DNA of 64,000 nucleotides, taken from assembly GCF_016735595.1 (NCBI RefSeq), contig NZ_JAERRB010000003.1:1-64000 (forward strand), in the 5' to 3' direction. This stretch comes from Chryseolinea lacunae (lineage in GTDB: Bacteria; Bacteroidota; Bacteroidia; Cytophagales; Cyclobacteriaceae). The stretch's first letter is position 1. Each line of letters opens with the position of its first letter. Shown piece after piece: positions 4,201 through 50,858 of the stretch. Made by a program: the position numbers and the translations under genes. The notes beneath the pieces were generated by a model. That model worked only from the letters and a program-made list of their open reading frames with translations. It was not told where the DNA came from and did no database searches.

Positions 4201-7200
4201 GAATGTTCCGCCTACTTTTAGATAGAATCCAAAATCCAATTGATTAGGCACTGAAATGGGTGAAGATGATGCCAAACCTGCCGCGCGTGCGGTGGTGGTT
4301 TCCAGTGCTTTGAATTGCATCCAGCCTGTGCCCGACAGCACATTCAACGTTCCTGCAGCACCACTCCAGACGTTGCTTGTGGCTGTCTTTGTGATTGTTC
4401 CGTTGACCAGAGAAACCGTGGCAGAGTATCCCCACTGTAATGTATTTGCCAATGACTTGTCTGCACCGAATGACGCACGTGCAGTATGGATCGATCCAGA
4501 CGTCAATGACATGTCGACGATGAGTGGCGTTACAGACGTGCTTGGGAAGAGATGACGTACTTCTCCGTTGACCTTTACGTACACCCGTGTCGCTATCCGC
4601 TCTACACGAATCACATCCCCCTTTTTTATGTCTCCCAAAAATCCGGTTTGAGTTCCACTCGCGTAGGCATAGAGTTTTGACAGGGAAGTAGTGTAGGCTG
4701 CAAACAGAATCTTGGTATATCCTGCATCTGCATCAACGTCGGTCAGTCCCATCATCACAACCGACGTGCCGTCGTAGACGCTTTCCACCCATCCGTTTTG
4801 CGAAGCTGCCAACACCTGGCTCGACGACGCGCCAGCACCCCATGATTGCGTGCCGTTGTAGGTCACTTTGTTGGTTTCGTTATCCAACATGCAGTTGGCC
4901 AGGCGGGCCCAGACCACATCATAGCTTTGATGAGCCGTGGTTTGTGTTTTCGTGACTTTCCCGACAAAATCATACTGCGAGGTCGTTCGGGATACTTTTC
5001 CTTCATGATCTTCTGCCACAGTCTGAATGACGCGATATTTGTCGTCGTAGTAGCTCACCGAACGCATCCACGATGTGGCATCGTTCAGACTCCTCACGCT
5101 GGTGCCGGTTATTTGCCCTTTAACGTTGGCAGATTCTTGAGGACTATAAGCGGACAAGTGATTGGATACAAGATCAAAACGAGGATCGGCATACAAGGTC
5201 TTGAACTGATAGTCATCGTAGTAGGTCACGATGAGTGGTGTGACCAATCCAACGGTAGTAACGTCGGCAACATCTGGAAAGGTTCTGTTGGTGTAGCCAA
5301 AGTTTGTGGCCGAGCCATCGTAGGTTTCATAGTACTTATCGTAGCTATCTATTTTTGAATTTACAAAGGCCTGCATACTGACAGCGTCGACCACGGTATT
5401 GTTTTGACATTTGTAGAGGCCCGTCATCACGGGGCGGTTCAGTATGTCGTATTTCGTGAAGCTCCACTCGTTTGTTGGGCGTTGATTGGCGTCTTGGGTC
5501 AACACCAGCCTGTCGCGGTTGTCGTATATCATATAGGTCCACTCCGCTCCCGGTGCCTTTTTGGCAATCATGCGCTTCCGGGCGTCGTAGCGATACTCGA
5601 AGGCCCAGTTGTTGCGTATGGTTTGGTCGACTGTTACAATACTTTGTTCGAAGTCGCCTGCCACCGAAGGAACTGCACCGCTCGCCGAATACATCGAAAC
5701 ATCGGCATATAGATCTTTGGCAAGCGTTGTGGTCGTAGACCACTTTTGCAATCCATTTATGTAGTAGTTCATTTTCGTGACACCACCTGCCGTTTCACGG
5801 CGTATCTCAAACACATCGCCAGGTTGCACATAGCCGACATATTGCTTTACACTTTTCTCAAATATGGAGATAGCTCCCGTGGGGTAGACAATGTAGAATC
5901 CGAATTCCGTGTCGGCACCAGAAACGGCGGTGTTGGTGCTGGCTAATCCTAAAACATAGGAGGCAAACACCGTGGGTGCTACAAACTGTATCGCGCCATT
6001 TTTGCCTGCAGCAATTTTGTTGCGCGAAAAAGCACCTGCGTTAGAAGCGTTGGTGGTGCCGGTCTTTTTGATGTCATAATTTTTGTCGCGCACCATGTTA
6101 GACAGCGATCCCCATTGTGCCGGGTAGCCTATGGTGTAGGTATGGGTGGCGGTGCGGCCCGAAGCATCTGTAACCGTTGCCACTACCGAAGTGCCTGCCT
6201 GCTTTCCGCTCAACACCACTCCTGTTTCGCCCGTAGACCAGCTCACAGCATAGGGAGCCTTGCCACCGGATATGGACATGGTGATGCCCGCATTTTTTCC
6301 ATTGGCATCGGGTGCTTTGAAAACCGGCGTCATGACCAACGGAGAATCGAATGAGCTATAGATAACCGGGGTCGCGCCCTGATAGATTGAAGCCTCTATG
6401 ATTTGCTGCTGACTGGCGTTTATGGCTACCGAACGGACGGATACTCCATTGCGGTAGAAATTCAGATAGCCCCCTTCGCGCGCGATGCGATAAACATCAC
6501 CCACTCGGAGTAGGGCCACGACACCTTGTGGCAGATCTTTTTGATACGCTATGACGCTGCCGCTACCGTTGCATACAAGCCCATTTTCAATACTGCTGCT
6601 GGAGCCGTCGATGTCCTGCACAGAAAGGCCGATATCATAATAATCACCAGCGGGTCTACCGATTTCAAATTCAATCCAACCATCCGCGCCAGGCATGAGC
6701 ATATTCAGACTGCTTGCTCCATACCATGTATTTACAGCGGCATATCTAACCAACGAATTGTCTTCCAGTATGTCCAGTCTACTGCTAACTTGTGTCCAAT
6801 CAACTTTATAGCCAAGACCGATTTGGGTTGATGCACTTCGCCCCTCCGCATCGGTCACCGTCACGGCATACGTGCCTACAGGTTTGTTTTCTATTTTATT
6901 CGTTGTGCCCCCTGCTCCCCAATTGTAAGAATATGGTGGTGTTCCACCGACAGGAGAAAGAAGTATGCTGCCACCGTGCGTCGCGTCTTCTACAGGTGCG
7001 ATTTTTTTCCGGATCTGAATTTGAGAATCAAATGTCGGAATCACCGTGGGAACAACAGCGCCATCGTGATAGACCGAGACGTCGATCATAAAATCCGCGC
7101 CAAATGCTGTATAGGCAACCGTTCGCAACAACATGCCGTTGTGATAGTATTTAATTGACGGTCCCGACTTTTCGATGCGAAAAACATCACCCACCGCAGC

Positions 7201-8259
7201 ACGACCAAAATTACCCGTTCCCGAAACGTTAGCACCTGATTCTAAGATCGTGATGTCCCCGTTCGCGACGTAAATACTATATTCAATGCTTGTGTATGAA
7301 GCATCCAGGTTCCTTCTCGACAATCCGATCTCATAGGCCATAGAACTGGTCCAGGCAAACTCGATTGAACCGTCCGTATCGGCCCGAAGCACATTAGTCG
7401 AAGCAGCGCCAGCATCCCAGGCATTGTTGCCCGTCTTTGTTAAACGATTAGTTGCATCCACCGCTACACCACCTACCAAATCTGTCCACGATGATTTATA
7501 GCCCAGCGTTACGGTCTTTGCGCCTGTCCGACCTGACGCATCCGATACCGTAACCGTGTAGGTACCCGCCACTTTGTTAGTAATGCCGGACGTGGCTTCT
7601 CCACTGCTCCACAAATAGGTATAGGGAGGAGTTCCCTGACTAACAGACACCGCAATGCTACCCCCTGTGCCACCATAGCCTACGGGTGTTACCGTATGCG
7701 CAATATTCAGCGAAGCATCGAAGCTCGCCTGAACGATAGGCGTCGTTCCGCTATACAGGGAAGCATCTACCATAAAGTTGCTATTATACGTATTGGGCAA
7801 CGTGAGGTTCCGCAGTTCGGTTGCTCCGCGAAAATACTGAAGCACATTGTTCGTACGAACGATTTTAAAGACATCGTTCACTGCCGCCGTCACCCCTGTG
7901 GAAATTGGCGTTCCTGATTCGTAGATAGTAACAACACCACTGCTAACCGCGATTGCATAGTCGATAGTTGTGAAATTGACATCCTTATCCGTTTTCGACA
8001 ATCCAAACATATAGGCACCCGTGACGCTAGTGATTGTAAATTGAATCGAACCGTCTACGCCAGCTTTCAAAAGGTTAGTCGATGCTGCACCACTGGTCCA
8101 ACCGTTGGCTCCTACTTTTGTGAGCGACTGGTTGGCGCTCACAGTTATTCCAACAACGTTTGTCCATTGAATCGGGTAGAGCGACTGGGCTTTCAGAAAA
8201 CCAGAAAGTCCTATGTGTAAAATTGTCAGTAATAGAAATATTCTTTTTTGCATCGACAT
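1288..8259 (-). CDS. Secreted RHS-repeat polymorphic toxin with C-terminal cholera-toxin-like ADP-ribosyltransferase domain
   Basis: About 2,320 aa, with a signal peptide at residues 1-26 (KRIFLLLTILHIGLSGF...AQS). Residues ~27-880 hold four ~160-aa lectin/SPRY-like units separated by SprB-like repeats (GGTGGSIAVSVSQGTPPYTY; TYTVTVSDASGRTG). The RHS/YD core starts near residue 885 (FEYRYDARKRMIAKKAPG), carries two more lectin-like units, and ends in the RHS core-terminal signature (GRWGVVDPLADKMRRFSPYN, DNPVRFIDPDGM, ~2070-2105). Past this conserved junction comes a variable tip. It has the three marks of cholera/pertussis-type ADP-ribosyltransferases: YVFRGDTRPPSQIF (Arg ~2204), GYIPTSKS (STS-like, ~2241) and NELEVAVPLAIPASKI with an ExE pair (Glu 2286/2288). 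These would bind NAD and transfer ADP-ribose to a host or rival protein. The start is ATG 8259 or 8253; an in-frame TTG lies at 8262. Confidence 0.9.
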   Translation of the reverse strand: MSMQKRIFLLLTILHIGLSGFLKAQSLYPIQWTNVVGITVSANQSLTKVGANGWTSGAASTNLLKAGVDGSIQFTITSVTGAYMFGLSKTDKDVNFTTIDYAIAVSSGVVTIYESGTPISTGVTAAVNDVFKIVRTNNVLQYFRGATELRNLTLPNTYNSNFMVDASLYSGTTPIVQASFDASLNIAHTVTPVGYGGTGGSIAVSVSQGTPPYTYLWSSGEATSGITNKVAGTYTVTVSDASGRTGAKTVTLGYKSSWTDLVGGVAVDATNRLTKTGNNAWDAGAASTNVLRADTDGSIEFAWTSSMAYEIGLSRRNLDASYTSIEYSIYVANGDITILESGANVSGTGNFGRAAVGDVFRIEKSGPSIKYYHNGMLLRTVAYTAFGADFMIDVSVYHDGAVVPTVIPTFDSQIQIRKKIAPVEDATHGGSILLSPVGGTPPYSYNWGAGGTTNKIENKPVGTYAVTVTDAEGRSASTQIGLGYKVDWTQVSSRLDILEDNSLVRYAAVNTWYGASSLNMLMPGADGWIEFEIGRPAGDYYDIGLSVQDIDGSSSSIENGLVCNGSGSVIAYQKDLPQGVVALLRVGDVYRIAREGGYLNFYRNGVSVRSVAINASQQQIIEASIYQGATPVIYSSFDSPLVMTPVFKAPDANGKNAGITMSISGGKAPYAVSWSTGETGVVLSGKQAGTSVVATVTDASGRTATHTYTIGYPAQWGSLSNMVRDKNYDIKKTGTTNASNAGAFSRNKIAAGKNGAIQFVAPTVFASYVLGLASTNTAVSGADTEFGFYIVYPTGAISIFEKSVKQYVGYVQPGDVFEIRRETAGGVTKMNYYINGLQKWSTTTTLAKDLYADVSMYSASGAVPSVAGDFEQSIVTVDQTIRNNWAFEYRYDARKRMIAKKAPGAEWTYMIYDNRDRLVLTQDANQRPTNEWSFTKYDILNRPVMTGLYKCQNNTVVDAVSMQAFVNSKIDSYDKYYETYDGSATNFGYTNRTFPDVADVTTVGLVTPLIVTYYDDYQFKTLYADPRFDLVSNHLSAYSPQESANVKGQITGTSVRSLNDATSWMRSVSYYDDKYRVIQTVAEDHEGKVSRTTSQYDFVGKVTKTQTTAHQSYDVVWARLANCMLDNETNKVTYNGTQSWGAGASSSQVLAASQNGWVESVYDGTSVVMMGLTDVDADAGYTKILFAAYTTSLSKLYAYASGTQTGFLGDIKKGDVIRVERIATRVYVKVNGEVRHLFPSTSVTPLIVDMSLTSGSIHTARASFGADKSLANTLQWGYSATVSLVNGTITKTATSNVWSGAAGTLNVLSGTGWMQFKALETTTARAAGLASSSPISVPNQLDFGFYLKVGGTFDVVEGSQTVASGTYAVNDVFRIETTLENGHLVLTYSKTGGFSVRSATLPTKSYRAQAVLNTKSSTIGELSVSFPVPLTEQKIDIFNRLDYDHAGRLTKTWQKTSGDANEILLVANDYNELGQLITKKLHNTDPADPIAGPPNTSRQFKQSVDYRYNIRGWLTRINKSDLSADDKDNVKDLFGMELGYEKPMASVTSIDDVAYNGNISATRWSNNLGLGGLNNPTQRAYRYSYDAMNRLNSAEHLEQNLTWAAVPSFKEAITSYDLNGNIRGLERTGKNGQIDNLTYNYGADLLRSNKLMSVSDASVNTEGFKDGANTALDYSYDPNGNMVSDLNKDVQSIVYNHLNLPARVNKTNGEYVKYIYDATGRKLTQQVFDAQNAMTKRSDYIGPLFLENDTLKFVNHGEGRIIPAKTKEETNEYQYHLKDHLGNVRLTFTTKPETDAGTATLEPAKEAEEKSKFLFVDEAVKVNSELFNHTPNSTTKYSTRLSGFANERTGLARSLSVMPGDVIHAEVYAKYVDPSHSNWQSALTNLMSAIAQGGAGSPVIDGGAQGSLGIYVFPYDGLVQKGDESTEAPRGYLNWIIFDREDHFLDGGAIQMVADAGKEDGTNVSHQKIEASFEIKQPGYVFVYLSNDSFDGEEVEVFFDDFRVEQIKSPVVQQDDYYPFGLTYNSHRREYSVPNRYQYNGKELQDALGLNWNDYGARMYMSDIGRWGVVDPLADKMRRFSPYNYAFDNPVRFIDPDGMGPKDQTNPDQNKEPTLLDKFVQGLYSFFSGVGSNINNLTGNKDASDQENLETGLMFMAQMATAPMEAEQMVMEAGESSETAIASKVDDVAEGASAIKPISYVFRGDTRPPSQIFAEGGFTARGTNMDLLEHAMGNPINSGYIPTSKSPRTARRFAGEGGYVYTIGTPVGSVDVNAALGAKAPFPNELEVAVPLAIPASKIAGARKIGPNLTFTGPYIPNNLFKR

Positions 8260-8383
8260 CAAGTATTAACGGTGTGTTGAATTTCAAAATTGGCCTCAGC
8301 TATCAGAGATGGAATCAACATATCTTTGCCATCAAATTAAATTTCATAACAATGAGAAGGGAGTAAGACAAGAAAATATCATG

Positions 8384-9565
8384 CTAAAGTCCGTTGCGTT
8401 CCTTGATTTCTTTAATTGCCTCTGGAGGTAACACGATAATTAGTTTATCAAAGTCATCGTAGATATAGTAGGTTTCTGCGAATAGGATATTATTGGTGCT
8501 GACCTCAACACCGTATTGAACTCGCTTAAGCACAGTCTTCCCATCGTTGTCAACGTATTCGACTACTTGATTCCCTTGTTCATCCACTGTTCCATTGGCA
8601 TACAATTTATTTGATGGATAGTAGTCACCAGTCGTAAGAACGTTAGTATCGGTATTATAAAAAAACTCAAGCACATCATTCTCACCATTCATTTCGTAAA
8701 GCTTATGGATCGAGTGATTATGAGTTGGATCAATATTGGGGTACCAGGTTTCGCCAGGTTGTCCTATCCTTTCAGGTCTATTTAATGGACTTGATTCAAA
8801 AACGGTTTCAGCATAAGGTCTAGCATCATCGGCCACGTCATCCGTTGCATTGTTATAAAAATTCGCCGAGGTACCAGTATAATTTCCATTTGCATCAATG
8901 AGATTAGGTTTATACCAACCCGGTCTTCCTTGCTCCGCCACGGTCACAGGCAAATATTTACGGTACTCTCGGCCATAGCCATCATACACCACAGGCTGAA
9001 CAACATCATTATATTCTGGAGAGGCCTTCGTTGACACCGTTTGCATAGGCCGCCCCAACCCATCAAAATATTGTATAATTTGGCTCACTGACTCAACGGT
9101 TAGAGCACTAACATCGTCAGAATTTGTTACTCCAGGCTTTAAGATTGTATTGGAAATAACATAGCTATAATTATTATATGAGAACGGGGCAGAGACGGCA
9201 GTACCCGCTACACCCGCTGCCGTAACGGTCACGGTATATAAACCCGTCTCCACAATAGATACAGTTCTATCAGTGCCAATAACCACATCTCCTTTTTTCC
9301 ACACATAGGTTGAATATTCGCCCGTTTCCAAAGTAACAGAACCAAAAACACCAGTATTTGTCTTCGTAGTAATCACTGGTGTCGTCGGTACATTTGTAGT
9401 GCTAGCTCCCGGACCAGAAAAAAAAGACTCCGACAAAGTCAGCAACAAGAAGTTAACATTCGCACTACAGACCGGTCTGTTCGCAACTATGTTCCGTCCT
9501 TGAGCATAGCTAATAATGAAGAGTAAGGAGGTAATTCCAACTCGTAAACAAAATTTATTTTTCAT
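8384..9565 (-). CDS. Secreted DUF6443-domain protein, N-terminal partner of the RHS toxin
   Basis: A 393-aa protein. I choose ATG 9565 because AAAGGTGA lies about 11 nt upstream; an in-frame TTG at 9592 is less likely. Signal peptide MKNKFCLRVGITSLLFIISY, then an Ig/PKD-like segment (YVWKKGDVVIGTDRTVSIVE), then the DUF6443 region (QIIQYFDGLGRPMQTVSTKA, VQPVVYDGYGREYRKYLPV, NRPERIGQPGETWY). It stops at VLPPEAIKEIKERNGL. In single-chain Bacteroidota RHS proteins this is where DUF6443 passes into the YD-repeat core, and that core (FEYRYDARKRM) is found in the next gene. The two genes therefore look like the halves of one ancestral RHS protein, split by a 124-bp gap and a new signal peptide. Confidence 0.8.
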   Translation of the reverse strand: MKNKFCLRVGITSLLFIISYAQGRNIVANRPVCSANVNFLLLTLSESFFSGPGASTTNVPTTPVITTKTNTGVFGSVTLETGEYSTYVWKKGDVVIGTDRTVSIVETGLYTVTVTAAGVAGTAVSAPFSYNNYSYVISNTILKPGVTNSDDVSALTVESVSQIIQYFDGLGRPMQTVSTKASPEYNDVVQPVVYDGYGREYRKYLPVTVAEQGRPGWYKPNLIDANGNYTGTSANFYNNATDDVADDARPYAETVFESSPLNRPERIGQPGETWYPNIDPTHNHSIHKLYEMNGENDVLEFFYNTDTNVLTTGDYYPSNKLYANGTVDEQGNQVVEYVDNDGKTVLKRVQYGVEVSTNNILFAETYYIYDDFDKLIIVLPPEAIKEIKERNGL

Positions 9566-9647
9566 TGTTATATATTTCACCTTTTTCAGCAATCAGTGAA
9601 AAGTTTAAGGTCATTATTTCATAACGCTTCTACGCTTTGACGGCTCA

Positions 9648-12600
9648 TCATTTCGATTGCCAATACTTATACTCAAATTCTTTAATGATATTTCGTTTTT
9701 CGTCCCGCATCAATTTAAGCCTCATCAGTGAGTCATATTCATAATATGTGACTTTGTTATTCGCATCACTTTGACTTGTCAATCCTATTAACGGATCATA
9801 CGTATAGGTTGTCATTTGCGCACTCTTAGGAAAAAACCGAATATCGTCATACTGACCGGAACCCAGGTTTATAGAATAACTCCCATTTGTCACAACTACA
9901 TTTTGCTCTGTCAGAATCCAATCAATTCCTGATTTCATCCAATAGCTGAGAATATAATCACCATTGCTCAGGGAGACTAAATTCTTTGAGTAACTACCTG
10001 TAAAGCTGTGGTGGCCAGTCTTAGAATTATCAATTGAGCCGTTTCCATTGCCCTCTTCAAAATTCTCAAGAAAAACATCTCCCACCGACGAATTCGCGAT
10101 TTCTGCAATAAGGAACTGCTGATCATAGCCCCATTTATATGCAGTGGAATAATTCTGTTCAAGTGACTGCTGCAGCAACCTTCCTTTTTCGTCATAGTTA
10201 GTAAACCGGACTCGTGTTGTATACCGAGGGTCCTTTAGAAACTGACCATTTACTATAGTAGAAAAACTAAAGGAATTCATCGGAGACTGAGATTCAATAG
10301 CCATCACCTGATTTAACGTTGGGAGGACTTGATTAAAAGTATTTAATAGACCGCCAACATATTTTCGGGTATTTGGCGTCCGTACTGGTATTATTTCTTT
10401 GTAAGATTCAACTGGAATTACAATGTGTCTATTTTGTAGGTTTAAAATTCCCATTGCGATACCATCAAGATTTGATTGATCTTGCAATCCAGTGTAATCC
10501 TGGGGAAATTTATAATATAGATTATTAGTATCGCCATTGGATGCCGTGACCGACTTAGCTATCATTTGAAAATGGCCGTTGACGACATCATAGGTGTATT
10601 TTTCCGAAAAGGTCAACGATTCATTTCCAAGATTATCGTACTGGTAGTGATCTTTCCGATCCAGAGTATTTCGATTTACCGGAATAGCAAAATGATGCGC
10701 ATTTATCTTAAAATATCGCTCAGAATTATACCCACCTCCAATGGGTGCCGCCAACCCCTGATCAAAAAGCATTTGCCAAACTTTGGTTGAATTGTTCGCT
10801 GTGTAAATATATTGATCACGTGAAATGGGGGCCATAACATTGTTGGTCCACTTAAAATATCTCTCCTCCAGTAAATCACCTCTTCCTCTTGTAATTGCTG
10901 GAATTGGCGTGATGATAGGATTCACAACATCCAATCCTATTTGATTTGAATAATAAAGCATCGTATTCACATTAATACTGCCTGAATTATTATAATAATA
11001 TTCAGTCATCCCATTCGGAATATTGTCAGCATCCAGATCTGAAATTTGCACTCTGCCATATCCAAAATAGGGCGCATCTCTTCCGTCTGAAAACTCATAG
11101 ATAGACTGCCCATACCGGTAACGAAAAGGGTTGTCATAGTAAACCGGAGTTCCACCACTAACAATTGAATAATAATCATGTCCCACCGGCGACACGTAGA
11201 TCGGTATATCATCGGCAGTTCCATCTAAGTATGTATATTTTCGGTTAGTCGACTTGAGTGTTATAGGGTCAAGCGTACTAATATTGCCAACTCTCAAGCC
11301 ACCAAGGTAGCGTGTAACCATTTCAAGTGATGAAGTGCTCGACGCCTTTGGCACATAAACTGTCCGACGTATTTCGCAACTGTTGAAAAAATCTACCGTA
11401 GTTGGATCAAAAGAGATGTTATAAGAGCTTCCGCCTTGAATGACGATTGACGAATCTTGAACGGCCGTTCCACTTAGTGTGTTTATTCTCTTTAAGAAGT
11501 TACCGTCTTTTTTTATAACGATATCTAAAAAGTATGTACCTAAAGGGTATAGATTATTGTCACGATATACCAGACAATAAATCTTCAATTTCTTTCCGTT
11601 CCACGCGGTTGCGGCCGTGAAATTTCCATTTGCATCAACGAAACCCGAGCTATTGACTACTGACGAAGCGTCATCCTTAAAAAGACTACTTGTTTCATCG
11701 CTATAGTGAATAACGGTTTCTTGCCGCGTATATTGATTATTCGCATAAGAGAAACCAACCTTTACACCAGTGGGGTATTGGATTGAAGTCAAAATATTTG
11801 CTTGCGAAAATGCCGGATTCGCATTTCTATTGGCACCGGGCAAAAATTCGGTTGCCTGCGATGGTAACGTGATCGTAGCTGGAGGAACCAATTGCTGATT
11901 CTGTGCCCCATTGAAAAAGCCCCAATGATCAACCGCAAGAGAAAGTTTCCCCGGTAAATTAAGTTGTTCATTGTAGGTGAAGATATATTTACTATCGACT
12001 TCATTCGACACCAAATTTATCTCACTTGTTCCTTTTAGTTTTAGTCTTTTATTATGATTGTCTGACGTGTAATTAGTTAAGCTATTGACCACGAAATTGA
12101 TTTCAGGGATGCCAGAGTAATAACCTTGATTTGCTATAAAATAGTCATTATTATCAAGGTTCGTTTTCTTCACAAGTCTATTTTCCTTGTCCCTCACCTC
12201 TACAGAAAATAAACGTCTTCCCCCTTGCAGATCAGCACGTTGATCATCATACAAAAACTTAACATAACCCGAAGAGAATTGAATATTATCTATATTAAGC
12301 TGATGATACATTGTAAAGTGAGGAGTAACCAACTCAAAGTTTTGCTGGATATTAGGCGAAGAATTTCCAACGCGATACGTTTCGGAAATGCTAGGTAACG
12401 GATGAACAAAAGATTGAGTAGAGTATAGATAATTGAAATTAATTTCTCCATATGTAGCAGACCTTATCTTGGTCAGATGCCACGTGCTTAATGAGGATGC
12501 CGTCCCTGTGGTTAATGCAGGATCGACGCTATTGCTATATGAAAACTGCCGTTGAGTAAAGTAGTAAATTGTTCCTGACTCATCGGTAACCTTCCAATCA

Positions 12601-13319
12601 GGATAAGTTCCATTTGGGATAAGTTCTATTTTTAAAGCCCCATCGCCTAAGACAGTAGGCTTAAAATTATTGTCAAAAATAAATTTACAACTTCTATTGC
12701 CGAAGTTTAAAACATAGAGATCTGACGCAAAGTCCGGTGCAGTGCCTTCATTACCAACCTCAAAGTAATTGAAGTATTCCTTTGCAGTATTTGCATGTGG
12801 CAAATTTAGCCCAGAGAACAAGATGCCTGAGTAGTTACTGGATGTAAATTGATGAGAATCACTTCCCCAGGCATAATACCATTGATCAATACTGGTTATC
12901 GGCTGTCGGGAAGTTGAAAGAATCGTAGTCGGAGCGTCCGGCATGTCGACATAAGTATCCGCAAAACCACCTTGAAAATCTGGCCGGCCTCGTGTTATTG
13001 CTGTGATCGAACCGCCAGCGCTAAGAGCCCACCCTAGGCCCACTTCACTGGCATCCTCCTTCACCTTGATTCCTCCGGCGTGATACTGAATCGAGATGGG
13101 AAATGCTACAGTTCCCTCATTGATAGTATAGATAGGGACCGAAATATTGGGAATACCTGTAAAATTGCTCACCGGTACCTGGCCAAACTTGGTAAGGGCG
13201 CTAACATCAGGTGGTGGCGGATTTACAATATTTAGCGATGGGCCCGTCTGGCATTTGGCATCCAACTGACATGCAAGTAATAACGCTAGTGCAAAAAGCC
13301 AGCTTAGTTTATTAATCAT
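9648..13319 (-). CDS. Large secreted YD/RHS-type protein
   Basis: A 1223-aa protein. ATG 13319 places a signal peptide at the start (MINKLSWLFALALLLACQLDA); an in-frame start 10 codons earlier would spoil it. The N-terminal part (PPPPDVSALTKFGQVPVSNF, GIPNISVPIY, YHAGGIKVKEDASEVGLGW) is the beta-rich region usual at the start of Bacteroidota RHS-associated proteins. The long middle is beta-rich with NG/YY-rich stretches. The C-terminus has YD-like repeats (TTYTYDPLIGLTSQSDANNK, YYEYDSLMRLKLMRDEKRN). It is the first gene of a four-gene minus-strand set with the DUF6443 protein, the RHS toxin and the immunity candidate. The likely role is part of the RHS shell or delivery apparatus outside the cell; this is inferred. 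Confidence 0.8.
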   Translation of the reverse strand: MINKLSWLFALALLLACQLDAKCQTGPSLNIVNPPPPDVSALTKFGQVPVSNFTGIPNISVPIYTINEGTVAFPISIQYHAGGIKVKEDASEVGLGWALSAGGSITAITRGRPDFQGGFADTYVDMPDAPTTILSTSRQPITSIDQWYYAWGSDSHQFTSSNYSGILFSGLNLPHANTAKEYFNYFEVGNEGTAPDFASDLYVLNFGNRSCKFIFDNNFKPTVLGDGALKIELIPNGTYPDWKVTDESGTIYYFTQRQFSYSNSVDPALTTGTASSLSTWHLTKIRSATYGEINFNYLYSTQSFVHPLPSISETYRVGNSSPNIQQNFELVTPHFTMYHQLNIDNIQFSSGYVKFLYDDQRADLQGGRRLFSVEVRDKENRLVKKTNLDNNDYFIANQGYYSGIPEINFVVNSLTNYTSDNHNKRLKLKGTSEINLVSNEVDSKYIFTYNEQLNLPGKLSLAVDHWGFFNGAQNQQLVPPATITLPSQATEFLPGANRNANPAFSQANILTSIQYPTGVKVGFSYANNQYTRQETVIHYSDETSSLFKDDASSVVNSSGFVDANGNFTAATAWNGKKLKIYCLVYRDNNLYPLGTYFLDIVIKKDGNFLKRINTLSGTAVQDSSIVIQGGSSYNISFDPTTVDFFNSCEIRRTVYVPKASSTSSLEMVTRYLGGLRVGNISTLDPITLKSTNRKYTYLDGTADDIPIYVSPVGHDYYSIVSGGTPVYYDNPFRYRYGQSIYEFSDGRDAPYFGYGRVQISDLDADNIPNGMTEYYYNNSGSINVNTMLYYSNQIGLDVVNPIITPIPAITRGRGDLLEERYFKWTNNVMAPISRDQYIYTANNSTKVWQMLFDQGLAAPIGGGYNSERYFKINAHHFAIPVNRNTLDRKDHYQYDNLGNESLTFSEKYTYDVVNGHFQMIAKSVTASNGDTNNLYYKFPQDYTGLQDQSNLDGIAMGILNLQNRHIVIPVESYKEIIPVRTPNTRKYVGGLLNTFNQVLPTLNQVMAIESQSPMNSFSFSTIVNGQFLKDPRYTTRVRFTNYDEKGRLLQQSLEQNYSTAYKWGYDQQFLIAEIANSSVGDVFLENFEEGNGNGSIDNSKTGHHSFTGSYSKNLVSLSNGDYILSYWMKSGIDWILTEQNVVVTNGSYSINLGSGQYDDIRFFPKSAQMTTYTYDPLIGLTSQSDANNKVTYYEYDSLMRLKLMRDEKRNIIKEFEYKYWQSK

Positions 13320-13600
13320 AGAAAATTCATCAAATAACAATAGACACAAAATGCTCCTCCGTATTTCTATTGCAATAGAAACGATACGGCTTACTCAACA
13401 TATTAAAATCCAGAAAAGTGTGATAATAGAATATCAATCAGAACTTCACAAATAGCCGCAGCACTAAACTAACACACAATTTTTTACTTGCTCCAATGGA
13501 TGTAAACTTAAACGTTTTATTTTATATGCAAAACCTACTTTTAAAAAATTTCTTTCGCTGCTTTGGATTCCATCCATTGACGATACTTACTCAATGTATT

Positions 13601-13815
13601 GGAAAATCCGAAGTGGCTGACCATCTTTTTCCGTTTTGCCCTGACCATCAATTTTTAGATAACGTGACCATCCAATTCCCCCACCATTTGACCAGAAACG
13701 AGTCTAGCAATCAAGGGCTTCGAAAGCTAGAGGATATTCAAGCCTTCAGCTAACTTTAGCTGGTCAAGCCGTCCTAAAACAGAGTGGTCAATGGGTGGGG
13801 ATCTCCACCAGGGCT
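13601..13815. repeat. Dispersed ~215-bp repeat, copy A (probable IS21-like terminus)
   Basis: Shares a long block with copies at 18655-18880 and 20585-20808: TCCGAAGTGGCTGACCATC, TTTTGCCCTGACCATCAATT, ACGTGACCATCCAATTC, ACCAGAAACGAGTCTAGCAA, TAACTTTAGCTGGTCA and a final GTCAATGGG-like segment. TGACCA recurs four times with 23-24 bp spacing. Multiple short terminal repeats of this kind are typical of IS21-family ends. No transposase is present. The rest of the 840-bp stretch between 13320 and 14160 holds no convincing gene. Confidence 0.75.
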
Positions 13816-14159: not shown

Positions 14160-16892
14160 ATGACGATTTCTATGGCCGCAAAGGGAAACGAATTTGAACT
14201 TCAGGTTTTGCAGTACCTGCGCAGTCTGTTTGGCGAGTTAGAATTTCCAATTATCGAAGCACGCAGGCAGAAAGCCGGCACGCAAAATGGTTTCGATATT
14301 AGGATTGGATTTTTAGATCAAAATGGGCGAGAGCGCAAATTCTATTTTGAATGCAAGGAATATAAAACGAGTATTAGCTGGAATGAAATATCCGTAAAAC
14401 TTCAAGAACTATATGCCTCCAATCATCAAGCAGACGGATATATCGCGTTATCCCCGTACGTCGATTTTTCCAACATCCAAATAAATATTATTGATTCCCT
14501 TCAGCGTACACTAAAATGCCCGATTAAATACTGGACGCCAGAAAATAATGTAAAGGAATACTTTTCTCTGAGCGACGACCTTTATTTCAAGCTGTATGGC
14601 GAACGTGTTTCTTTGAGTGATATTGACAGAACCCATATCAGGCACAAACTGAGAGCATATGTGTTAAATATTCTAAGAGAAAGAGATGAATTGGTGACTA
14701 ATTCATCGACTAACAAAATACCCCGGGAACTCACACTCAAAATCCCCAGGATTCACGAGGATGACATCATAGGTAGGACTAGGGAATTGCAGGAGATACA
14801 TACTCTGTTATTTAGAAATAGACGCACGGTATTAATTAACGGCCTTGGTGGAATAGGAAAAACTACCATAGCACAGGGGTACGTGAGTAAATACTATAAC
14901 GAGTATGAGCATATCGCTTGGGTCTCACAACTTACGGGGGATATTGTCGATGATTTAATAAATACAGAAGGCCTCTTGAAAAATCTATCGATATTAAAAT
15001 CGGGCAAAGATATCATGCCACTTTTTTACGAGCTCATGGGTAAACTAAAATCGATCCCTGAAAAGCCAAATTTGTTAATTCTGGACAGCGTGGATGAGAC
15101 GCTGACGGACTTTAAGGATATTTTGCCTGGGCAGCCTACCTGGCATGTACTTCTTACTTCGAGAGAAACTGTGCCTGGCTTTTTTTCAAGGGAACTTGGC
15201 TTTTTAGAACCTAAAGAGGCTGTCGCTTTGTTTCAAAAACATTGCCAGTTGATCAGGGATGAAGCGGAAATTTTGAGCATTCTAGGCGTCGTTGATTACC
15301 ACACGCTTACAATAGAAATTCTTTCGAAGACGGCCCAATTTCAAAGGACCGATGTTTACGCTTTGAAAAATGCGATAGAGGCTGACCTTCAGGCCAACGT
15401 ATATATTGATCATAAGGGAGGTAGAATAGATCGCGTTCAATCGTATCTCATCTCTATTTTTAACCTGAGCAAATTAAGTGAAGATGAGTTATGGGTGATG
15501 AAGCAATTTGCATGTTTACCTACAAATTTTCATGCTTATAATTTAGTCCATAAACTAATCAGCCCAGGATTTGACCGAAGAACGATGCTGTCGGAAGCAC
15601 TAAATCGGTTGGCGCAATTGGGATGGATTCTGCACAATAAGGAGGGTGACGCTTATAAAATGCACGTGGTGATAAAAGGCGTTGTCATTAAGAAGTTGTC
15701 AATACTATTGCATGACGTTGCTGGGCTGATGACTGTCATTTCTTATAACTTGGAAATACAAGGTTACGAGGATCCTACCGAAAAATTTGTTTGGATCCCT
15801 TTCGGTCAATCCATTCTTCGTCCATTTGAGAATGATACCTCCGCAGTAGTTGCGCTGTTACAAAACCGGCTTGCTCTCATTCTGAATGTTCGAGGAAAAT
15901 TTCCCGAGGCGAAGGAAATATTGGAGAAGGCACGGCATTCAGATGAACAGCGTCACGATCTTGGTGCCGCTGCATTCACATACTCAAATCTTGGATTGGT
16001 TTACCAATCGTTGGGGGACTACCGGAATGCGCGAAGGCTTCTGAAGCAAGCTGTAGACGAAAGCGTTAGGCTCTTTGGGGCCGACGATCCGATAACGCTT
16101 TCCAGGAGCCAGAATTTAGCAGGTGTCCTTATTGAATCCGGAGATCTTATGCAGGGGCGATCGTTGTTGGAAAATGTTATAAAGTCGAACGAGAAGCGCC
16201 TTGGCATCGACCATCCTGACACAACCAATGCATATGCTAGTCTGGGCGCAGTGCTTTATAGTATTGGAGAATACTCCAATGCACAAGCGATGCTAGAGCG
16301 AGCTATTCGGCTATTGGAAGATAATTTTGGTCCGGACCATTCAAATTTAGCTCAGGCTTGGTCGCATCTTGCATTGGTGCTTCTGGCTCTCGATAAAAAT
16401 GCAGAGGCCGTATCTCTTTTTGAAAAAGTCAGCAATGCAGTTGAGAAGAAATTTGGATCTGACCACCCGAAAAATATTACAAGTTGGAGTAATCTTGCTG
16501 TTGCTTTAACACAAATCGGCAACTATTCACGCGCACGATTCCTTGTAGAGAATGCCCTAAAATTGGCGCAACAAGTGCTCGGTCCCAATCATCCGGACAT
16601 CTCTGCAATTTATTTAAGTATTGCTAATGTAATGAAGGCCCAAGGGGACTTTGCGGGAGCACGACCGCTTCTTGAAAAGGCTGTTGAGCTGGATGAATTG
16701 AATTTTGGGTTGAATCATTTGAATACTGCGATAAATTATGCCAACCTGGCGATAGTACTCAAAAGGCTTGGAGAATTTGTTACTGCTCGCGAGTTCTCTA
16801 CAAAAAGCCTTGCAATTATGGAAGCTACGTTGCCGGAAGGCCATCCGTACATTGATAAGGTTCGGAGGACCAACGAATCTCTACACTCCTAG
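14160..16892 (+). CDS. STAND NTPase: PD-(D/E)XK (Mrr-like) nuclease - NB-ARC - TPR; candidate anti-phage defence protein
   Basis: A 910-aa cytosolic protein with three parts. Residues ~5-125 form a restriction-endonuclease-like PD-(D/E)XK domain: Asp46 in NGFDIRIGF and Glu64-x-Lys66 in FYFECKEYK. Residues ~200-520 form an NB-ARC/STAND ATPase: Walker A GLGGIGKTT (228-236), Walker B LLILDSVDE (305-313) and sensor LLTSRE (331-336). Residues ~570-905 are tetratricopeptide repeats of ~42 aa with the 'FGxDHP' motif (e.g. LFGADDPITLSRSQNLAGVL, LGIDHPDTTNAYASLGAVLY). In known STAND defence proteins the repeat arm senses a trigger, the ATPase oligomerises, and the N-terminal effector cuts nucleic acid. 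By analogy this should be a trigger-activated nuclease. It is flanked by mobile-element repeats. Confidence 0.9.
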   Translation: MTISMAAKGNEFELQVLQYLRSLFGELEFPIIEARRQKAGTQNGFDIRIGFLDQNGRERKFYFECKEYKTSISWNEISVKLQELYASNHQADGYIALSPYVDFSNIQINIIDSLQRTLKCPIKYWTPENNVKEYFSLSDDLYFKLYGERVSLSDIDRTHIRHKLRAYVLNILRERDELVTNSSTNKIPRELTLKIPRIHEDDIIGRTRELQEIHTLLFRNRRTVLINGLGGIGKTTIAQGYVSKYYNEYEHIAWVSQLTGDIVDDLINTEGLLKNLSILKSGKDIMPLFYELMGKLKSIPEKPNLLILDSVDETLTDFKDILPGQPTWHVLLTSRETVPGFFSRELGFLEPKEAVALFQKHCQLIRDEAEILSILGVVDYHTLTIEILSKTAQFQRTDVYALKNAIEADLQANVYIDHKGGRIDRVQSYLISIFNLSKLSEDELWVMKQFACLPTNFHAYNLVHKLISPGFDRRTMLSEALNRLAQLGWILHNKEGDAYKMHVVIKGVVIKKLSILLHDVAGLMTVISYNLEIQGYEDPTEKFVWIPFGQSILRPFENDTSAVVALLQNRLALILNVRGKFPEAKEILEKARHSDEQRHDLGAAAFTYSNLGLVYQSLGDYRNARRLLKQAVDESVRLFGADDPITLSRSQNLAGVLIESGDLMQGRSLLENVIKSNEKRLGIDHPDTTNAYASLGAVLYSIGEYSNAQAMLERAIRLLEDNFGPDHSNLAQAWSHLALVLLALDKNAEAVSLFEKVSNAVEKKFGSDHPKNITSWSNLAVALTQIGNYSRARFLVENALKLAQQVLGPNHPDISAIYLSIANVMKAQGDFAGARPLLEKAVELDELNFGLNHLNTAINYANLAIVLKRLGEFVTAREFSTKSLAIMEATLPEGHPYIDKVRRTNESLHS

Positions 16893-17990: not shown

Positions 17991-18500
17991 TTATGCACAG
18001 TTGCATACGCACTTACTCCAACCCAATTTTAGCATGTCTCCAAGTTCCACATCCGATACATTACTGTCCACCGATATAGGTTCTTCCTTTGTACCCATAA
18101 ACCCTCTATTCTTTCCTGTTGGTCCCCCATTAATTGTCGGAGCAAGTCTAATTTTGCCATCTTTTTCACTAATCATCAGATGAAGGGCATTTCTATAATG
18201 TTCCTTTCTGTTTTTGAATCCTGCTTTCTTCAAGTAGTCGGTATACTTGCCGTCAATATCTTTTGTCATTTTCAGGTCGTCTCTGCTCTGTCCAAGGTGA
18301 TGTCTTAGCGTTTGTCCGAGAAGAATTGAGTCCCCATCAGGGTGAAGTATTGTGAGATACGTAGATATGATACCATACGAGTCCTTTATTCGGTCAACCG
18401 TTTCAATGACTATTTTGTCAGGATACAACGTGGCACCCGCACCTAACACTTTCGGCTTGTGTTTCTTTTGCCCTAATTTAAATATCTCCAAAATGTTCAT
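17991..18500 (-). CDS. CdiI-like contact-dependent inhibition immunity protein
   Basis: A 169-aa protein. ATG 18500 is preferred over a TTG two codons upstream. The layout resembles CdiI immunity proteins once filed as DUF1436: a central LGQTLRHHLGQSR helix, YTDYLKKAGFKNRKEHYRNA, then IRLAPTINGGPTGKNRGFMG, and a C-terminal SDVELGDMLKLGWSKC helix. Such proteins bind and block a partner toxin nuclease. No matching toxin lies beside it, so it would be an orphan immunity gene. Short near-identical sequences (TGCAA-Y-TGTGCATAAC) flank it: one ends the gene and an inverted one lies at its start, next to an attC-like palindrome. That is a gene-cassette-like arrangement. Confidence 0.6.
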   Translation of the reverse strand: MNILEIFKLGQKKHKPKVLGAGATLYPDKIVIETVDRIKDSYGIISTYLTILHPDGDSILLGQTLRHHLGQSRDDLKMTKDIDGKYTDYLKKAGFKNRKEHYRNALHLMISEKDGKIRLAPTINGGPTGKNRGFMGTKEEPISVDSNVSDVELGDMLKLGWSKCVCNCA

Positions 18501-18510
18501 ATGCAATTGT

Positions 18511-18583: not shown

Positions 18584-18654
18584 GAAAAACTAAACTACAA
18601 AATTACACTGAACCCCGCCATTGATTATGCACGTTGTTATAGCCTGTGCTTTTT

Positions 18655-18880
18655 GGAGAGTCCGAAGTGGCTCACCATCTTTTGCCGTTTTGCCCTGACC
18701 ATCAATTTTTAGATCACGTGACCACCCAATTCCGCCACCATTTGAACCAGAAACGAATCTAGCAATGAGGCGGCTCCAACCACCCTAACCCTAGGCCAAG
18801 TTCAAGCCCTCCGGTAACTTTAGCTGGTCACGCCCTCCTGAAACAAAATGTTCAATGGGGTCGAAATCTCGGCAAGGGCC
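18655..18880. repeat. Dispersed ~215-bp repeat, copy B (probable IS21-like terminus)
   Basis: Copy of the repeat at 13601 in the same orientation: TCCGAAGTGGCTCACCATC, TTTTGCCCTGACCATCAATT, GATCACGTGACCACCCAATT, TAACTTTAGCTGGTCACGCC. It has an extra ~25-bp insert in its middle compared with copies A and C. It fills most of the gap between the attC-like site and the gene at 18975. Confidence 0.75.
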
Positions 18881-18974: not shown

Positions 18975-19157
18975 ATGTATAAGGCCTACGTGTATCACAA
19001 TTTTGAAGAAAAAGAGGCTCTTGAAAAAGAGCTACTAGCCAAGATACCGGCCAAAAAAAGGAAAGCACTGTCAAAGGCACTAATGGACTTTTTTCACAGG
19101 CCTGTCGCAGAGGACAATTCTAATGTCCTCCCTCCATTGAAAAATAATAAAAAATGA
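18975..19157 (+). CDS. Small basic helical protein overlapping a nucleotidyltransferase-like gene
   Basis: A 60-aa, lysine-rich, predicted helical protein (MYKAYVYHNFEEKEALEKEL, AKKRKALSKALMDFFHRP). Its stop overlaps the ATG of the next gene by 4 bp (ATGA), the mark of translational coupling. Family not recognised. The small-gene-first layout with a minimal-nucleotidyltransferase-like partner recalls toxin-antitoxin pairs of the MNT type, but I see no HEPN motif here. It could also be only a DNA-binding or adaptor partner. Confidence 0.6.
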   Translation: MYKAYVYHNFEEKEALEKELLAKIPAKKRKALSKALMDFFHRPVAEDNSNVLPPLKNNKK

Positions 19158-19669
19158 TCAGTGAAGAAGGCCGTAGACATCTGATTCGAGTTTGCGACGT
19201 TCTGAACAAATATGACGTTGACTACCTAATCATCGGTGGCGCTGCGGTAAGCCACTATGGCTTTAGTCGCCCATCGGGTGTCGGCATAACAGGCGGCAAT
19301 AATATTGATCTTGATTTCTGGTACAATCCAACGAACGAGAACTATCTGAAACTCCTAAGCGCCCTTGACAAACTAGATGTGGAGACGACGTCACTGAGAG
19401 AGTTAGTCTTCGATTCTAAGAAAACGTATCTAAAAATAACACTCGACGAGTTTCATTTGGACTTCTTGCCCACAATGCAAGGATTAAAATCATTTAGAGA
19501 CAGCAAGGCAACGTCAGAGAAAACAAACTATGATGGAGCAGAGGTGAGATTCTTGTCCTATGATGACCTCATTTTAAATAAGAAGGCAATCAATCGAAAA
19601 ACAGATCAGTCGGATATTGAGGAGCTGGACAAGATTCGAAAGGGTAAAAAGCATAGTCGAGGAATATGA
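19154..19669 (+). CDS. Nucleotidyltransferase-like protein
   Basis: A 171-aa protein with marks of the minimal nucleotidyltransferase superfamily: the glycine-rich helix YLIIGGAAVSHYGF (~27-40) and an acidic strand NIDLDFWYNP (~54-63) that supplies Asp-x-Asp metal ligands. A third acidic strand may be FHLDFLP (~100). The end (VRFLSYDDLILNKKAINRKT) is the usual helical tail. Known relatives transfer nucleotides to proteins, RNA or drugs, and some are antitoxins or abortive-infection proteins. It is translationally coupled to the upstream 60-aa gene. Substrate unknown. Confidence 0.75.
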   Translation: MISEEGRRHLIRVCDVLNKYDVDYLIIGGAAVSHYGFSRPSGVGITGGNNIDLDFWYNPTNENYLKLLSALDKLDVETTSLRELVFDSKKTYLKITLDEFHLDFLPTMQGLKSFRDSKATSEKTNYDGAEVRFLSYDDLILNKKAINRKTDQSDIEELDKIRKGKKHSRGI

Positions 19670-20362: not shown

Positions 20363-20632
20363 TTACTTGTGACCAAAGGCGCAGCAAGGAAAATCAACGC
20401 GCCTGAGAGAAGTCTTCCCCATCGTCACTCCGTCAGCGCTATATATTACATTTATTCCAGATTGTCCCAATGAACTAGACACAAGGCCTATAATCAAGTT
20501 TTCTCCTTCTTCCTTAGTGAATTGAAAGCCCATTGGTATGAATCTAAATCTTATCCCAGTTGGGATAACTACAGGCCCACTGTTGGAGAATCCGAAGAGA
20601 CTGACTATCTTTTTCCGTTTTGCCCTGACCAT
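20363..20632 (-). pseudogene. Hypothetical gene fragment with its 5' end replaced by repeat copy C
   Basis: A 89-codon frame whose first ~16 codons are read through the dispersed repeat (20585-20808). The remainder (VVIPTGIRFRFIPMGFQFTK, GLVSSSLGQSGINVIYSADG) has normal protein-like composition but no family that I recognise. It is probably the 3' part of a gene cut by the repeat. Confidence 0.35.
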
Positions 20633-20808
20633 GAATTTTCAGATCACGTGACCACCCAATTCCGCCACCTTTGACCAGAAACAAGTCTAGCAATCAAGTG
20701 GTTCGAAACCTAGACGTAGTTCAAGTCCTCAGGTAACTTTAGCTTGGCACGCCATCCTGAAACAAGTAGTCAAAGGGTTCTGGATTCTCACCGACTATCG
20801 GGCAGGGA
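20585..20808. repeat. Dispersed ~215-bp repeat, copy C (probable IS21-like terminus)
   Basis: Third copy, same orientation as copies A and B: TCCGAAGAGACTGACTATC, TTTTGCCCTGACCATGAATT, GATCACGTGACCACCCAATT, ACCAGAAACAAGTCTAGCAA, TAACTTTAGCTTGGCACGCC. It marks the right border of the accessory region; ordinary lipoprotein genes begin just beyond. Confidence 0.75.
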
Positions 20809-49389: not shown

Positions 49390-49390
49390 T

Positions 49391-50779
49391 TCAAATCAAT
49401 TTAAAAACTGCCATTTGCGATGGTCCACCCACGCCCTCCACAACATCGCCAAGAGGCTTTGTCTGCACCTCATATCTATTGCGGTCGCACACACCATTTG
49501 CCCAGGCTTCGAATTCGTGGCGCGTCCATTCAAACCGGTGATCGGTGTGTCGCATGTCGCCAGCTTTCAGGGTCTCAAACAGCGCGTTGTATTCGCGGTT
49601 TGGCGTTGTGACTACAACCGTTTTGGGGCGGGCAAATTCAAACACAACACGCTCAAACGTTTTGAGGCGATTCAGATCCAAATGCTCGATCACTTCCACA
49701 ACGGCGGCGGCGTCAAACCCATCAAATCGCCTGTCGCGATAGGTTAGCGCACCTTGCATCAACGAGATGCGCTCTTTCTGCATGGGCGCCAGGTCATAGA
49801 AGTTGATGCGCTGCATCGCCTTTTCAAGTGTTCGATGCGAAACATCGGTTCCAACAATGCGAACAAATTGCTTTTCTTTCAAAAGCATCTTCAGCAGTTT
49901 GCCTTCGCCACAGCCGAGGTCGATAACCGTTTTGGCTCCCGATGCCATCAATTCACCCAGAACTGCCTTGAGTCTTTTCGTGTGGAGCTTTTCCTTTTCA
50001 ACATCAACCTCGTCATTTTCTTCATTCGTCGGTGCGTCATCGCCTTCAACAAGTCTACTCAAGGCATTTCGTGTCAGACCGGCAATGTTTCGCAGATAAC
50101 GTTTTGTGATTTGCTCTTTTTCAGGGTGATCGCCCAACCAACCCTGGCCCTTTTCAAGCAACTTTTCAACTTCGTGTTGGCTAACCCAATAATGCTTCTC
50201 GTTGTCGAGCACGGGTATCAAGACATACAGATGCGAGAGCAGGTCTTTCAGCTTCGTTGTGGCTTTCAGTTGCACCGTAAAATATTTGCTTTGCCCCCAT
50301 TCAGAAAACTGAGCATCCAACGTGTGGCCCTGAACAGTCACTGCATATCCCAACGGCTCAAACAATTTCCGTATCAACAACTCCCCACCCTTTGGCGCCG
50401 ACACTACCGAAATGTTCACCTCAAAGGGCATCAGCACATCTACTAGCTCTGGTCTGTTTGCACATTTGCCATTCATGGCCGTCGAAAAAGCTTTCGACAG
50501 CGCTACACTCATAAAAGAAGATGCAACATAAGGTCTGTCGTTCACGTATTGCCCCAGCGAAAATGATTCGGAGCCGCGGTCGCCTCCGTTTCGCACCAGG
50601 CCAATAGCATCAATGTCGAGCAGAATCGCCGCCGTGCATCTATCTTCCTGCGCCTGCGGATAGAACACATGGGCGTGTCCGTGCGACAATTCAATAGACT
50701 GCAGTTTGTCAGGATGCTTGTGGAGCAAAAAACCTAAGTCTGTTGCGGGTGAGTGGGTTGTAGTGATTGTTAGTAACAT
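49391..50779 (-). CDS. hen1: Hen1 3'-terminal RNA ribose 2'-O-methyltransferase
   Basis: A 462-aa protein. The N-terminal half (~1-250) is the bacterial Hen1 ligase-activating domain (HAHVFYPQAQEDRCTAAILL; VDVLMPFEVNISVVSAPKGG). The C-terminal half is the methyltransferase: SAM motif VIDLGCGEGKLLKML (~285), GTDVSHRTLEKA, and the metal-binding signature VEVIEHLDLNRLKTFERVVF with a downstream DMRHTDHRFEW. The Mg/Mn site formed by the E..EH..H residues is the mark of Hen1. It methylates the 2'-OH at the broken 3' end before Pnkp seals it, which protects the RNA from being cut again. First gene of the hen1-pnkp operon; a TATTTTTG box precedes the start by only a few bases. Confidence 0.95.
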   Translation of the reverse strand: MLLTITTTHSPATDLGFLLHKHPDKLQSIELSHGHAHVFYPQAQEDRCTAAILLDIDAIGLVRNGGDRGSESFSLGQYVNDRPYVASSFMSVALSKAFSTAMNGKCANRPELVDVLMPFEVNISVVSAPKGGELLIRKLFEPLGYAVTVQGHTLDAQFSEWGQSKYFTVQLKATTKLKDLLSHLYVLIPVLDNEKHYWVSQHEVEKLLEKGQGWLGDHPEKEQITKRYLRNIAGLTRNALSRLVEGDDAPTNEENDEVDVEKEKLHTKRLKAVLGELMASGAKTVIDLGCGEGKLLKMLLKEKQFVRIVGTDVSHRTLEKAMQRINFYDLAPMQKERISLMQGALTYRDRRFDGFDAAAVVEVIEHLDLNRLKTFERVVFEFARPKTVVVTTPNREYNALFETLKAGDMRHTDHRFEWTRHEFEAWANGVCDRNRYEVQTKPLGDVVEGVGGPSQMAVFKLI

Positions 50780-50858
50780 ATCTCAAAAATAAAAGAAGCG
50801 CGCATGTCCTGAACGCATCACTAAAAAAAAAGGGTTAATCAGTTTCTTTCACAAGCTA

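Follow-up and report, generated by a model that had tools for sequence, protein, structure and literature searches.

A putative Mrr-like nuclease joined to an NB-ARC switch and a TPR sensor in a single protein of Chryseolinea lacunae

The window analysed here is a stretch of 64,000 nucleotides from Chryseolinea lacunae (contig NZ_JAERRB010000003.1, positions 1 to 64,000). On its forward strand, between positions 14160 and 16892, lies one open reading frame (ORF) whose predicted product is, judged by its domains, a relative of the immune receptors of plants and animals that unites a probable DNA-cutting domain, a nucleotide switch and a repeat sensor. The anatomy is in three parts: an N-terminal nuclease-like domain, a switch of the NB-ARC/STAND type, and seven 42-residue tetratricopeptide repeats (TPRs) of the kinesin-light-chain (KLC) type.

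Architecture of the predicted receptor

The features of the gene are the following.

14160..16892, + strand: whole gene, one ORF of 910 codons (910 residues) without an internal stop
14160..14609, + strand: predicted Mrr-like PD-(D/E)XK nuclease domain (effector), residues 1–150, from Mrr_cat and the family profile comparison
14295..14297, + strand: Asp46, predicted catalytic residue, invariant in 7 of 7 aligned members
14349..14357, + strand: Glu64-Cys65-Lys66, predicted catalytic E-x-K, invariant in 7 of 7 aligned members
14610..14729, + strand: variable linker, residues 151–190, 25% identical to that of Chitinophaga rupis
14730..15359, + strand: NB-ARC nucleotide-binding domain, residues 191–400 (PF00931 at 210–362)
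14841..14864, + strand: Walker A motif GLGGIGKT, residues 228–235 (Lys234)
15360..15839, + strand: rest of the switch (winged-helix/arm region), residues 401–560, with the YKMH motif containing His502
15972..16853, + strand: seven 42-residue KLC-type TPR units (sensor), residues 605–898, from Pfam, structural relatives and the division into units

Two in-frame ATG codons stand at the 5' end of the ORF, at 14160 and 14172. Because three orthologues begin with MSLMAKG, MTKG and MAKG, translation probably starts at the second of these, Met5. Scans for promoters and terminators gave numbers at chance level (13 promoters found against 13.6 expected, and 4 terminators against 4.4).

The identification of residues 1–150 as an Mrr-like nuclease is weak for the window protein alone and becomes convincing when its relatives are included. 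All seven members of an aligned nuclease set match Mrr_cat at E-values up to 0.1 (best 8.3e-5); three of them (L208, L209 and L210) were recruited by the nuclease profile itself, termed A7 and built from the domains of the window, C. rupis and Parachryseolinea silvisoli, and are not NB-ARC-TPR orthologues, and one (L209) extends to the end of its contig. Residues K8, G9, E13, Q42, D46, E64, C65 and K66 are invariant in the seven rows, the catalytic D...(D/E)xK pattern being kept in D46, E64 and K66. When this seven-member family was compared by hhalign with a profile of six other Mrr-STAND N-termini (three from Mrr-nSTAND3 proteins, two from Mrr-NACHT proteins and one from another protein with an Mrr_cat match), the probability was 92.6%, against 0.2% for two unrelated control profiles. 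Searches of solved structures with the nuclease profiles gave chance matches only, and Pfam revealed no additional domain for DNA recognition in residues 1–190. When the nuclease parts of the window and C. rupis are compared, the proportion of nonsynonymous differences (pN) comes to 0.23 and that of synonymous differences (pS) to 0.85, the latter near saturation, and from this we infer that the domain is under purifying selection.

The switch is recognised more directly, with Pfam NB-ARC (PF00931) above its cut-off at residues 210–362 (E 3.8e-8). Residues G230, G231, G233, K234, T333 and R335 are invariant across an 11-row alignment of relatives, and His502 is unchanged in all five rows of the core alignment A6. 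We take YKMH, which contains this histidine, to occupy the MHD-like place, and the names of the MHD, winged-helix and NB-ARC motifs are used as we presume them to apply. Among the structural matches of the core profile are plant NLRs, APAF-1, AfsR and PH0952, a STAND protein that has a TPR sensor. By its intact P-loop and this series of motifs, we assign the window protein to the NB-ARC clade of the STAND NTPases.

Over the C-terminal part, TPR_12 and TPR_10 lie far above their Pfam cut-offs, and by sequence the best solved TPR relatives are the kinesin light chains. Most of the seven consecutive units close with a degenerate FGxDHP-type motif. Mean identity between units is 44% at the nucleotide and 29% at the amino-acid level, and a tandem-repeat scan detected no 126-bp array here, hence no homogenisation; the array is not one of near-identical tandem sensor repeats (high internal repeat conservation, HIC). 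The C. rupis array comes closer to HIC, with 9.3 copies of a 126-bp unit at 84% matches.

A preliminary description of the gene, made from its letters and translations, had proposed a single protein joining these three parts, with an intact P-loop at Lys234, nuclease residues Asp46 and Lys66, and KLC-like TPRs with FGxDHP motifs. Each of these, like Glu64, is found in the sequence, and the nuclease residues prove to be conserved among homologues, which that account had left as a check. Its PD-(D/E)XK effector is supported at the level of the family; in the window protein by itself the match stays below threshold.

Relatives and genomic setting

Relatives were collected by a core scan covering one genome per species in 84,980 species, in which 399 stretches matched and 172 relatives were obtained; the best 80 of these 172 were kept and correspond to 77 loci. 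The scan revealed C. rupis (58% core identity) and P. silvisoli (52%), both with an N-terminal nuclease domain of the window type. Scans of genome and viral contigs with the single protein had given no close homologues. Three further loci pair this nuclease with the same core: C. rupis and G1124, with full-length orthologues of 997 and 826 residues respectively, and P. silvisoli, where the nuclease is in a separate ORF. At the latter locus (L123:5473-9510) a nuclease ORF of 172 residues ends at one in-frame TAG right before the NB-ARC-TPR frame; the gene may be split or broken, or the stop may be an error of sequencing. The part best conserved between the window protein and that of C. rupis is the nuclease (65% identity), followed by residues 191–400 (61%), residues 401–560 (54%), the TPRs (47%) and the linker (25%).

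The nuclease-NB-ARC-TPR combination is rare and patchily distributed across the two families scanned. Profile A7 was matched in 2 of the 295 genomes of the window's own family (the window genome and one with P. silvisoli coordinates) and in 5 of the 294 of the C. rupis family, where the matches comprise the strong, full-length ones of C. rupis and G1124 (283 bits), one of 74 bits in G1296 (locus L208) and two weak ones of 26 and 21 bits. A six-frame search with A7 of the loci collected up to then gave no others above 20 bits.

A core tree was built from 26 members, namely 22 of the 77 loci, two relatives found earlier, G1124 and the window. The four cores paired with the nuclease fall together in it as a single clade (support 97/97), nested among cores with other N-termini; several terminal branches of the tree are long and 10 of its 23 inner branches are open. 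As few groups were obtained in none of 500 label shuffles. The other N-termini on related cores are HNH (L007), CHAT (L037), EAD11 (L039 and L051) and a Cap4-like domain below its cut-off (L038), and that of L128, judged by eye, is presumably DUF4062-like. In G1296, an Mrr-like domain 29% identical to that of the window is carried by a different P-loop protein of 1390 residues (L208:4784-8953, minus strand), the P-loop having been read by eye. Because related cores bear varied N-termini and the same nuclease is found on another P-loop protein, effector and switch appear to have been exchanged in both directions. Among 10 long proteins scanned from other parts of the phylum, Mrr_cat is fused to nSTAND3 (L105, L107 and L108) and to NACHT (L103, L111 and L113).

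When the first 30 kb of the window was compared by blastp with the loci of C. rupis, G1124, P. silvisoli and G1296, no other gene was common to them at 1e-5. Because the flanks share no other gene, this looks like a stand-alone, one-gene system. Copies of a dispersed repeat lie around the gene:

13599..13795, + strand: dispersed genomic repeat upstream of the gene
18640..18860, + strand: dispersed genomic repeat downstream, in the same orientation as the upstream copy
20583–20765, direct orientation: third copy

This family of repeats, each of about 200 bp, has 28 matches across the genome of 7.9 Mb, a count that takes in partial matches as well as the query, and the copies inspected by eye showed neither a transposase nor a terminal repeat. 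The preliminary placement of the gene between mobile-element repeats can therefore be kept for the dispersed direct repeats that flank it, and not for their mobile-element nature, which was not confirmed. Some of the copies adjoin proteins that appear RHS-like by eye.

Among the neighbouring genes, three large ORFs on the minus strand (1291–13349), one with DUF6443, stand beside the receptor gene and possibly form a polymorphic-toxin (RHS/YD) region. Downstream are genes for a CdiI-like immunity protein (17991–18506, minus strand; PF07262, 31.2 bits, cut-off 25) and a DUF2204 nucleotidyltransferase-like protein (19154–19669; PF09970, 23.1 bits, cut-off 20.3). A PADLOC scan took in 13 of the 33 window ORFs of at least 150 residues, the receptor included (12 of the 32 others); the sole match among the 12 others was mad2, about 33 kb away (ORF 49394–50779, E 1.5e-9). 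In the same region (46813–51428, minus strand) ORFs resemble, by eye, a Pnkp/Hen1 RNA-repair pair.

Variation in the sensor arrays of the wider family

A tandem-repeat scan covered the window region and 88 loci, 89 sequences in all, and found arrays of TPR-like period in 36, some of them outside the receptor ORF. A set of 31 arrays was defined from the 88 loci by the presence of at least three register-matched units at no less than 75% identity to the consensus; these come from about 28 genomes, five loci sharing two assemblies. As the ligand groove we took TPR positions 2, 5, 9, 12, 13, 33 and 34, assumed from the TPR literature and fixed after inspection of two arrays. Amino-acid change at this groove set exceeds that at other surface positions in all 31 arrays (for example L122:7150-8315), the signal being carried by positions 2, 9 and 12 and less so by 13. 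When seven non-structural positions were drawn at random, 174 of 20,000 draws came up to the observed mean, and for the five helix-A positions the observed value was reached in 17 of 20,000. For positions 2, 9, 12 and 13 in the 14 most similar arrays, pN over all-codon pS is 1.68 (1.34–2.10); when the five most variable positions are chosen by a split-half test, it is 1.33 (1.15–1.53). The pattern, which is drawn from the relatives and not from the window protein, is suggestive of selection for change at groove positions.

Other aspects of the data count against diversification of this kind, the lack of homogenisation in the window array among them. Groove positions 5, 33 and 34 are not hypervariable overall, and positions 3, 31 and 41, outside the set, are. 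Over same-codon pS the ratio is 1.28 for the 14 arrays (bootstrap 0.97–1.72) and 1.09 for the split-half choice (0.91–1.29), and only 15 of the 31 arrays have a pN above pS at the groove set. The groove pattern is also seen in all four arrays without an in-frame P-loop, compared with 32 of 32 that have one (two of the four, L165 and L198, are also within the set of 31), so that it need not be specific to receptors.

Published work, cited here and below for the portions of each paper that were available, describes HIC repeats in fungal NB-ARC-TPR receptors, where the concave face of the TPRs is under positive selection (PMC4986451). Among WD40 proteins, HIC is noted as commonest in the genomes of fungi and bacteria (PMC12222747). 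Repeat turnover in bacterial TPR receptors is not described among the literature matches listed on NLR repeat turnover, in the text available from them. We put forward only tentatively, and with more doubt than confidence, the idea that bacterial NB-ARC-TPR receptors diversify themselves as fungal NLRs do, by duplication and homogenisation of repeats, selection at the groove and swappable N-terminal effectors that do the killing, in which case the window gene would be a nuclease-armed member with an old, diverged array. Whether bacteria, like fungi, make new specificities by reshuffling near-identical sensor repeats could be tested directly in the wider family.

Proposed function and comparison with known systems

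We consider it probable that the window protein is a stand-alone bacterial NLR-like (STAND) receptor of defence, in which the sensing of an invader's protein by the TPRs would release the Mrr-like nuclease. At rest, the TPR array and the arm would keep the NB-ARC switch shut around ADP. A protein derived from the invader, most likely a phage, would then dock on the concave face of the TPRs and release this autoinhibition; exchange for ATP would allow the protein to oligomerise, bringing the N-terminal PD-(D/E)XK domains together so that DNA is cut, and infection would be stopped with the loss of either the cell or the invader's genome. We propose an autoinhibited receptor with a TPR groove and a nuclease activated by oligomerisation because of the analogy with PH0952 and MalT and with Avs1–4. 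In PH0952, the TPR sensor touches the nucleotide-binding domain, and its homologue MalT is autoinhibited in part through contacts of a similar kind (PMC6468293); the nuclease effectors of Avs1–4 cut phage and host DNA after sensing conserved phage proteins (PMC12931631). An anti-phage function for the window protein is plausible. What the sequences show is the three-part anatomy, conserved switch and predicted catalytic motifs, a nuclease kept in other species, varied N-termini on related cores and the lack of a common partner gene at the loci compared; autoinhibition, trigger, oligomerisation, DNA cleavage and defence are inferred from these and from the analogy.

Several results weigh against this proposal. 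In the window protein alone, Mrr_cat scores 17.3–18.1 bits (E 0.003 at 18.1), short of its cut-off of 21, with NOV_C and PDDEXK_15 likewise below their own cut-offs, and the profile comparison falls to 18% with the window nuclease alone and 55% with three members. No PADLOC Avs model at E 0.01, nor any other full-length defence model, matches the protein, and no recognised defence genes or defence island were found around it among the 13 window ORFs scanned with PADLOC, the mad2 match lying about 33 kb away. Two scans of IMG/VR found no homologue, the one with the nuclease alignment matching 58 stretches, none of them confirmed. The nuclease domain was not found in plasmid or phage collections, and the distant core relatives present on 17 plasmid records include none that covers 80% of the query.

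A receptor of this build could also serve to recognise kin or non-self and to bring about regulated cell death. Its TPRs would then sense a protein that comes from another strain or is the cell's own, for instance following contact-dependent attack. The fungal protein PLP-1 (patatin-NB-ARC-TPR), which recognises an incompatible SEC-9 variant (PMC12881547), provides a parallel in heterokaryon incompatibility, and the homogenised, groove-variable arrays of the relatives resemble those of fungal receptors. The position of the gene, between the large minus-strand ORFs (one with DUF6443) and the CdiI-like immunity gene, would suit such a role. We nevertheless regard it as unlikely, since the bacterial Avs and NACHT proteins described in PMC12931631 and PMC10907252 protect against phages and no other gene is common to the window and the related loci compared.

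Were the protein a type IV-like restriction factor, modified DNA would be recognised directly by the Mrr-like domain, and the NB-ARC-TPR part would regulate its amount or assembly only. Mrr restricts modified DNA, and the Mrr_cat similarity of the window domain and its relatives is consistent with such an activity; several unrelated N-termini on related cores, however, point to sensing by the TPR arm, and this together with the lack of a separate Pfam DNA-recognition domain in the first 190 residues makes the explanation very improbable. A regulator of transcription or of a developmental programme, of the MalT/AfsR type, is suggested by the place of AfsR among the structural matches of the profile, by an NCBIfam AfsR match far below its cut-off and by the example of MalT, a TPR-sensor STAND regulator (PMC6468293). 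We give it scarcely any credence, since Pfam finds no DNA-binding domain in the window protein and the N-terminal domain has conserved nuclease residues. A defence receptor sensing through its TPRs remains the interpretation that we favour.

The design is one already known, according to the text consulted, from bacterial anti-phage proteins, to which the window protein adds another member. PADLOC, named in the preliminary description as a source of homologues, gave for the window protein one generic TPR match, two weak partial matches and no Avs model; the match to PDC-S73 covers residues 207–250 only (15.1 bits), short of full length, and in the relative L207 a weak Avs4 match is limited to the P-loop region (15.4 bits, E 5e-4). 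The best NCBIfam match, NF040586, scores 252.5 bits, below the curated cut-off of 300, and lies mostly in the TPR region. The same description had held that known Avs-type proteins use other repeat arms. This is not supported, as TPR and Sel1-like repeats occur in two of the three Avs5 sensors tested (PMC12931631), and tetratricopeptide repeats are given as an example of the sensors of experimentally characterised antiviral STAND proteins (PMC10907252). The idea that a TPR arm sets the window protein apart from Avs was rejected on the descriptions in these two papers and in PMC9122126.

The exact combination of Mrr, NB-ARC and TPR in bacteria was not described in the full-text literature searched, which is mostly without subscription papers. 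To the bacterial relatives of the NLRs of plants and animals, the window protein in our view adds a branch that is rare, needs a single gene and is armed with a nuclease, and whose orthologues are few and well delimited (the window, C. rupis, the two-ORF locus of P. silvisoli and G1124). Conflict systems are described as including Mrr-like effectors, and AP-ATPases with C-terminal TPRs (PMC7159879).

Nearest in description are the STAND proteins with C-terminal repeats from an anti-phage hotspot of phage satellites, in which Mrr_cat may take the place of TIR as effector (PMC9122126). Like the window protein, these (with Mrr_cat or BpuSI_N) have an N-terminal Mrr-type nuclease, a STAND ATPase and C-terminal repeats; they come from P4-like satellites of E. 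coli, whereas the window protein is from the Bacteroidota and has NB-ARC and 42-residue KLC-type TPRs, the comparison being one of descriptions. Avs1–Avs5 (AVAST) share the effector-STAND-repeat layout, some Avs5 sensors having TPRs, and Avs5 carries nSTAND3 (PMC12931631) where the window protein has NB-ARC; the PADLOC Avs4 profile has 1570 positions, compared with the 910 residues of the window protein. The Mrr-nSTAND3 candidate PDC-S73 of PADLOC likewise combines an N-terminal Mrr_cat with a STAND ATPase, and is matched nearly full length by L105 and L108, from which the window protein differs in its NB-ARC switch and KLC-type TPR sensor. The TPR protein of the FxSxx-COOH system, NF040586, has an N-terminal TIR domain and a peptide-processing locus (PMC7159879), whereas the window protein has no Pfam TIR match. 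The fungal NB-ARC-TPR NLRs PLP-1 and Pa_2_10340 resemble the window family in joining NB-ARC and TPRs to varied N-terminal effectors. Their own N-termini are of lipase type, patatin in PLP-1 (PMC12881547) and sesB-like in Pa_2_10340 (PMC4986451), and nuclease effectors are not mentioned in a further paper on fungal NLRs (PMC9815663). The repeats of the fungal receptors are homogenised, in contrast to those of the window array.

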